From the NCBI GenBank assembly GCA_020851595.1, contig JADZCK010000016.1, forward strand, positions 1 through 55,197: DNA of 55,197 bases. The letters are read 5' to 3'. A model generated the notes under the pieces. That model did no database searches. It had not been told where the DNA came from and saw only the letters and a program-made list of their open reading frames with translations. The translations under genes and the position numbers were made by a program. Shown here piece by piece: positions 48,034 through 48,990 of the stretch (its first letter is position 1; every line of letters starts with the position of its first letter). Source of the DNA: Candidatus Nomurabacteria bacterium (lineage in GTDB: Bacteria > Patescibacteriota > Minisyncoccia > Phycocordibacterales > UBA9973).

Positions 48034-48062
48034 TTGACAGAAACCTTGTTTAGGTGTATAAT
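48034..48062 (+). promoter_or_regulatory. Consensus sigma70 promoter of second DGR-like target gene
   Basis: TTGACA - 17 nt - TATAAT. Confidence 0.85.
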
Positions 48063-48212
48063 ATAAAGATATACAGTTCTTTTAAATTAGATTACTTGCG
48101 AAACAGAAATTCGCCATAGCTTTTAGCATATAAATAAATTTGTAAGTTAAAAGCTGTGGCGAAAGCTAAACACAAACAGCAATGGCACACATGCCGTAAA
48201 GGAGATGACGAT

Positions 48213-48713
48213 ATGACGACTCAGGTTGCCATGACTCCATCTATCACGAAGCCGGCCAGTATCTCGGTGTCCACCGAGATGATCCACGTCGATCGGACTC
48301 TTCGCCCGACCTATCCCGACTGGATGGCGGAGGACGGAGTCCAACACCCCGAGCTCGAGCTTACCGGTCCTGCCGAGTTCGACGTGGCGAATCTGGAGCA
48401 GTGGATCCACCCAGAACAGGTCAACGGATGGACGACGGGGCAAGTGATCTACGATCACTTGAAGGCAAACAACATGCTCGCGGACTGTCTCGGACTCGCG
48501 GATCTTCTGGCCATCCAGGCCAAAGGCCTCGACTTCTTTCATAAGTACTTTGACGGGAAGTCTCCCTTCGGCTGGAAGGGAGCCGTTCGGCACCGCTACG
48601 GCCCCCTGTTCGTGCCTTTTCTCTTCGAGCTTGCTGGCGAGGTCGTCCTGTACTGGCGTTGGCTCGACGGCCTCTGGAGCGCGGACGGTCCGGCTCTCCG
48701 TTTCGCAAAGTAG
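48213..48713 (+). CDS. GC-rich protein with C-terminal variable-region-like domain (second DGR-type target)
   Basis: ATG 48213 preceded by aaaggag; C-terminal VRHRYGPLFVPFLFELAGEVV aligns with the downstream TR-like sequence. ORF track start is GTG 48156. Confidence 0.75.
   Translation: MTTQVAMTPSITKPASISVSTEMIHVDRTLRPTYPDWMAEDGVQHPELELTGPAEFDVANLEQWIHPEQVNGWTTGQVIYDHLKANNMLADCLGLADLLAIQAKGLDFFHKYFDGKSPFGWKGAVRHRYGPLFVPFLFELAGEVVLYWRWLDGLWSADGPALRFAK
48585..48710 (+). repeat. Candidate VR2 (aligned core 48585-48644)
   Basis: 60-nt gapless alignment to 48877-48936: 17 mismatches, 11 at TR2 adenines. Confidence 0.65.
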
Positions 48714-48784
48714 GTTCTCGGACTTTGGTCACTGTGATCTCTCAGATCCTTTGACCTTAGTCCTTCATTCGGTTTCAAATCTCT

Positions 48785-48822
48785 GACCCCGCGTCGTCTG
48801 CGACACTCGGGGTCTTTTCTTT
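48785..48822 (+). terminator. Intrinsic terminator after VR2 gene
   Basis: gaccccg/cggggtc followed by T-rich tract. Confidence 0.8.
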
Positions 48823-48830
48823 TTTAATTT

Positions 48831-48970
48831 AATTATGCTTGGGTCGGCAGTGAAAAAGATGGCATTCTATACATTCGTTCGGAACCACAACGGCAATCTG
48901 AATGTGTCCTATCTCATCGAGGATGATGTCGAGGTCGAAAATACCAAGGGTTCCGCTTGGAATTTTCGTA
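48831..48970 (+). repeat. Candidate TR2 with conserved leader; probably degenerate or partly deleted
   Basis: aattatgct..ggtcggcagtgaaa.agatgg.att leader aligns gaplessly to 626-668; aac cac aac ggc aat ctg aat A-rich codon pattern. Confidence 0.65.
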
Positions 48971-48990
48971 TTTTTTGCTATACTTTCATT

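Follow-up and report, generated by a model that had tools for sequence, protein, structure and literature searches.

Adenine-directed variable regions (VRs) without an RT have been described in DGR fragments of DUSEL4 Nanoarchaeota, for which the authors considered 'fossils' or regions 'diversified remotely' as alternatives (Paul et al. 2015, PMC4372165). In Treponema denticola isolates, target genes were seen as remnants where the complete DGR was absent (PMC4891356). For the DGR of BPP-1 it is known that retrohoming requires a hairpin, formed by an inverted repeat a short distance beyond the VR (Guo et al. 2011, PMC3240598), and that the template RNA has its structured part 3′ of the template repeat (TR) (PMC12875486).

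Here we describe locus 2 (positions 48034-48990), a broken DGR cassette and a further case of the RT-less DGR remnants known from nanoarchaea and Treponema. The window, i.e., the whole stretch of DNA that was analysed, comprises 55,197 nt and represents contig 16 of a Nomurabacteria-like (Patescibacteria) assembly of 725,713 bases (~726 kb) in 57 contigs. Locus 2 shares with the DUSEL4 fragments an RT-less VR with adenine-directed change, but those fragments are archaeal, whereas the TR remnant of locus 2 could be polarised by homologous TRs and the missing parts could be identified, which favours the fossil reading. The T. denticola remnants belong to another phylum, and in contrast to them a truncated TR is still visible at locus 2. 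Lineage and a target without recognisable domain are shared with the Patescibacteria DGRs of 'clade 2' (Roux et al. 2021, PMC8144416), from which locus 2 differs by the absence of RT, Avd, and a complete TR. The hairpin after the VR, as known from the BPP-1 target site (PMC3240598), is kept, but its stem is longer and interrupted, its loop is not of the 4-nt GRNA type, and the machinery is absent. Locus 2 appears to offer a snapshot of DGR death, in which template and machinery would have been lost first and the target gene remains; in combination with the RT-less targets of sister species, the question whether cells retain a frozen variant that works becomes testable. A more novel by-product of the comparison is a conserved structured RNA that Patescibacteria DGRs carry upstream of the TR.

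Three complete cassettes and a broken one in the same genome

The genome contains three RT genes, each in a complete cassette, located at positions 1-2213 of the window (cassette A) and on the contigs C26 and C38. Locus 2 is therefore the fourth DGR locus and not the second one, for which the earlier note had taken it. By organism and RT relatives, the three complete cassettes would belong to the 'clade 2' DGRs (PMC8144416); the nearest named relatives of the window RT were mostly from Candidatus Nomurabacteria, with up to 74-76% identity. All three show the order target, terminator, TR, Avd, RT, the target of cassette A being cut by the contig start. VR and TR differed at adenines only, with 20/35 A and 0/95 non-A positions changed in cassette A, 11/32 and 0/79 in C26, and 15/30 and 0/69 in C38. 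The Avd of cassette A was recognised by the PHROG Avd family (E = 5.6e-14), and the Pfam bAvd score (36.2 bits) was just below the cut-off. This gene (808-1173, − strand) is encoded opposite to RT and TR; it diverges from the RT gene and points towards the TR, and the same arrangement was seen in C26 and C38. The RT feature is as follows.

1206-2213, + strand: RT of cassette A (RVT_1 match of the longer ORF 1158-2213, E = 1.3e-23; identity to the RTs of C26 and C38 72-76%)

At locus 2 the gene order is htpX, target, gatC, and the following features were found.

48034-48062, + strand: target-gene promoter, intact (TTGACA-17-TATAAT, 12/12 consensus matches; similar layout before the live C26 and C38 targets)
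48112-48161, + strand: 5′ leader inverted repeat (cgccatagctttta ... taaaagctgtggcg); the leader is 85% identical to the C26 leader over 114 nt
48213-48713, + strand: DGR-type target gene, intact, 166 aa (GC 0.60, GC3 0.75 versus 0.36 GC for the window)
48584-48708, + strand: VR2, the variable region at the C-terminus (full extent by homology to the C26 VR; the part matching the TR2 remnant is 48584-48645)
48720-48763, + strand: post-VR hairpin (target-site hairpin/cruciform), kept (ssDNA fold −9.5 kcal/mol, z = −3.94)
48785-48826, + strand: terminator-like GACCCCG...CGGGGTC with T-rich tail, read from the sequence
48828-48875, + strand: residual pre-TR flank, the last ~40 nt before the TR and all that remains of the pre-TR region; holds the helix 6 3′ strand (GGCATTCTATAC)
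48876-48937, + strand: TR2 remnant, comprising the initial 62 nt of the TR (11/15 A versus 6/47 non-A positions changed; its adenines are adenines in relatives' TRs)
48957-48984, + strand: gatC promoter (TTGGAA-16-TATACT), far edge of the insertion; the TTTTGCTATACT motif also precedes gatC in many relatives

The gap between htpX and gatC measures 993 nt in this genome but 28-140 nt in many relatives, and therefore the cassette was inserted at this junction. Between target and gatC neither RT nor Avd is present: the three RTs of the genome sit in the other cassettes, and a tblastn search with the C26 Avd matched the window only at 811-1173. The TR2 remnant is followed by a short hairpin and then by the gatC promoter. 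As RT, Avd, and a full TR with a 3′ IMH* end are missing, locus 2 lies outside the class of complete DGRs; it is an orphan target whose gene and TR are homologous to those of live cassettes. Further insertions at the htpX-gatC junction were observed in relatives (L159, L166, L175, L187), several of them bounded by ATCTACGC(T/C)AT(A/G)GCGTAGAT-like palindromes.

The leader inverted repeat, the reading frame, and the ribosome-binding site of the target gene are all intact, and the gene is probably still expressed from its own promoter. No match of the protein was obtained in Pfam, PHROG, or NCBIfam, nor in a search against contigs of named genomes, and it shares 46% identity with the C26 target and 46-57% with the closest targets of sister species. 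An AlphaFold model based on a two-sequence alignment had a mean pLDDT of 37.7, too poor for a comparison with the CLec fold. As dN/dS across the species' targets is near saturation (dS about 1-1.8 where computable and dN 0.4-0.6 between the orphan and its relatives) and mostly reflects the time before the loss, we make no claim on present selection. The post-VR hairpin has a counterpart in C26 (z = −4.74), and the stems change by compensation, with GGTCA/TGACC at locus 2 and GGCCA/TGGCC in C26. VR2 could thus in principle accept cDNA, yet no template fits.

An inverted repeat cgccatagcttt...aaagctatggcg is conserved in target 5′ leaders (window 48112-48161; L016, L017, L041, L043, L044), and similar repeats precede the targets of C38 and of the sister genomes G131, G122, and G144; a possible role is that of a regulatory hairpin. 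The GC content of DGR targets exceeded that of the RT in 42 of 45 loci (of L078-L157; median 0.52 versus 0.35), and in the genome studied here it is about 0.60-0.64 (window 48213-48713 and 1-342; L016, L017) compared to 0.36 for the window.

The decayed template repeat

The earlier note had aligned the end of the target gene with the sequence downstream of it, and its counts proved exact when repeated: 17 mismatches in the gapless 60 nt 48585-48644 versus 48877-48936, 11 of them at the 15 adenines of TR2 and 6 at the 45 other positions. The best local alignment covers 62 nt (48584-48645 versus 48876-48937), with a significant concentration of changes at adenines (Fisher p = 2e-5). Its A-tolerant score was 68.7, whereas the same VR compared with 95 other 1-kb windows on both strands scored at most 29.3, and 300 codon-shuffled VRs compared with the same downstream kilobase scored at most 31.3. 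The similarity is thus far above chance, and the VR/TR pair of locus 2 is genuine although RT and Avd are missing, as had been claimed; the order target, terminator, TR and the likeness of the post-stop sequence to cassette A are likewise real. The suggestion of a mismatched partner did not hold. The adenines of TR2 are adenines in relatives' TRs at 12 of 15 positions for G097 and at 8 of 8 comparable positions in the part shared with C26, and TR2 was therefore the true template of VR2; judged by its sequence, 48876-48937 is a real template repeat.

Beside the strong A bias, VR2 and TR2 differ at 12.8% of the non-A positions, compared to 0% in the live pairs of the genome and to a median of 1.1% among 71 cassettes from which pairs above 10% had been filtered out beforehand. 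This difference is probably due to decay of TR2. At position 48907 the closest TRs have C and TR2 has T, which points to a mutation in TR2. At 48897 the closest covering TR has C and some more distant TRs have T; this C to T exchange was also assigned to TR2. At 48922 an A is found in close TRs; the C of VR2 is hence adenine-directed, and TR2 later changed from A to G. At 48929, where close TRs have A or G, the T of TR2 appears derived. The polarity given by homologous TRs is ambiguous at 48903 and 48909. Changes in TR2 therefore best account for at least four of the six mismatches at non-A positions, which makes the template, more than the gene, the decayed partner, in agreement with the degeneration that the earlier note had proposed. 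Its observation of a shorter 3′ part of TR2 was correct as to the shortfall, but TR2 is not merely shorter: it is truncated, the match stopping at 48937 after 62 nt, whereas live TR/VR matches extend over about 91-153 nt, apart from one at a contig end.

A structured RNA upstream of the template repeat

By aligning the VR-TR interval of 22 cassettes, we found that Patescibacteria DGRs have a structured RNA of ~230 nt immediately 5′ of the TR, whereas the structured part in BPP-1 lies 3′ of the TR (PMC12875486). It comprises 53 pairs in 9 helices, and 40 pairs have changed on both sides among the 22 cassettes. The fraction of paired cells was 98.3%, compared to 83.6% in column shuffles and 36-48% when the structure was slid along the alignment. 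A helix of 12 bp closes onto the bases with which the TR region begins. We built a covariance model, R1, of this pre-TR RNA; of the 60 related loci in which 900 nt or more lie upstream of the RT, 59 contained a match, and the end of the match usually abutted the TR start (median −4 nt). The genome contains exactly three copies, one per live cassette.

429-674, + strand: pre-TR RNA of cassette A (R1, 206.9 bits)
L016 3673-3915 (− strand), L017 2947-3182, and 63 of the RT loci L078-L157: other copies of the pre-TR RNA

At locus 2 no match to R1 was obtained. The residual flank is 78% identical to positions 622-693 of cassette A over 72 nt, and the partner strand of helix 6, the TR-closing helix, is missing; the best partner forms 8 of 13 pairs, compared to 12 of 13 in cassette A. 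As almost all live TRs tested have the pre-TR RNA next to them and locus 2 has lost it, this RNA is probably needed for template use. In Rfam only sub-threshold chance matches were obtained, and no description of this RNA was found in the literature searched, which covered few subscription papers and not the main CPR DGR paper.

Origin of locus 2 and RT-less targets in sister genomes

In all likelihood, locus 2 is the remnant of a once complete DGR whose target survives as a frozen variant while TR2 drifts. A complete cassette with target, post-VR hairpin, pre-TR RNA, TR, Avd, and RT would once have been located between htpX and gatC, and its own RT would have copied TR2 and used it to rewrite VR2 at the positions of adenines. 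Later losses would have removed the greater part of the pre-TR RNA and all that followed TR position 62, i.e., the rest of the TR, Avd, and RT. Diversification would have ceased, TR2 would have started to drift, and the target gene would have persisted as a frozen variant, with VR2 presumably no longer changing. We infer the complete ancestor because no close strain with an intact cassette at the htpX-gatC site was found. A point against the remnant reading is that in an assembly of 57 contigs a TR could fall into a gap.

The earlier note had proposed that VR2 is diversified in trans by the RT at 1206. More generally, VR2 might still be a live target of an RT and Avd encoded elsewhere in the genome, using TR2 or another TR. 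Three complete RT/Avd sets are available, VR2 keeps its post-VR hairpin and a perfect promoter, and the intact 166-aa frame and hairpin could also mean that the site is still in use. The C26 TR is even homologous to VR2 with a bias for adenines (18/24 A). However, 12 of 67 non-A positions differ between the two, compared to none in the live pairs of the genome, and the TRs of cassettes A and C38 match VR2 over 16-17 nt only (16 nt for cassette A), so that all three were rejected as templates. TR2 itself lacks the 3′ half, the IMH* end, and the pre-TR RNA. A better TR elsewhere, for which the earlier note had suggested a search, was not found in the assembly: when the 3′ half of VR2 was searched apart from adenines with up to 3 mismatches, only VR2 itself was found. 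The VRs of RT-less targets in four sister genomes likewise matched none of their own genomes' TRs, either genome-wide (G111, G080) or among the fetched TR loci (G077, G082). We therefore consider it highly improbable that VR2 is a live target diversified in trans, and nothing was found in support of the RT at 1206 acting on VR2, now or in the past, although it may once have done so.

It is also improbable that a partial cassette consisting of the target and the start of the TR was brought here by transposition or recombination, with no RT of its own ever present at this site. Such an origin would suit a target leader 85% identical to that of C26 next to a TR flank resembling cassette A, and remote target dispersal has been described in cyanobacteria (PMC7517822), but as far as the TR the parts follow each other as in a complete cassette, and neither a transposase gene nor a repeat boundary was noticed at the site in an unsystematic look. 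That 48876-48937 is not a TR but a partial duplication of the target 3′ end diverged by ordinary mutation would fit its non-A differences and its position in AT-rich intergenic DNA, but is refuted by the TR homology: the changes concentrate at adenines conserved in relatives' TRs, and the 5′ flank, in which the 3′ strand of helix 6 is present, shows homology to the sequence preceding the TR in cassette A.

With locus 2 read as the remnant of a complete DGR, its counterparts in the genus can be compared. Relatives of the target were found in 12 sister genomes, three of which carry them in complete cassettes (G097, G131, G122). G083 (L046 1595-2330) has an intact target, the pre-TR RNA, and a 34-nt TR 3′ end with adenine changes only; its cassette holds no Avd or RT, and no RT was found in this 86%-complete genome. 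It represents a second clear broken cassette and the mirror image of locus 2. In G111, G080, G077, G088, and G082 the target is kept without a TR nearby, and a search of the whole genome yielded none in G111 and G080 either. G088 has two copies of the target, and its genome, 98% complete, contains no RT; G077, G088, and G082 are without a recognisable post-VR hairpin. The target of G144 is located near a contig end, which makes its orphan status uncertain, and G072 was dropped as an orphan target, its pre-TR RNA being cut by the contig end.

The chances seem evenly balanced that two generalisations both hold. One is that loss of the retroelement with survival of the target is a recurrent route in the genus, DGRs being temporary generators that leave fixed proteins behind. 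The other is that Patescibacteria DGRs carry a covarying 9-helix RNA 5′ of the TR, with its 12-bp helix closing onto the first TR-region bases, instead of or besides the 3′ spacer RNA of BPP-1, and that its loss disables the template.

DGR RT genes with internal stops were observed at L057 and L064 (G097), L055 (G072), and L050 (G080), possibly as a result of further DGR decay or of sequencing errors. In the G122 target (L043 / L086), a one-base insertion in the VR relative to the TR appears to shift the C-terminus out of frame.
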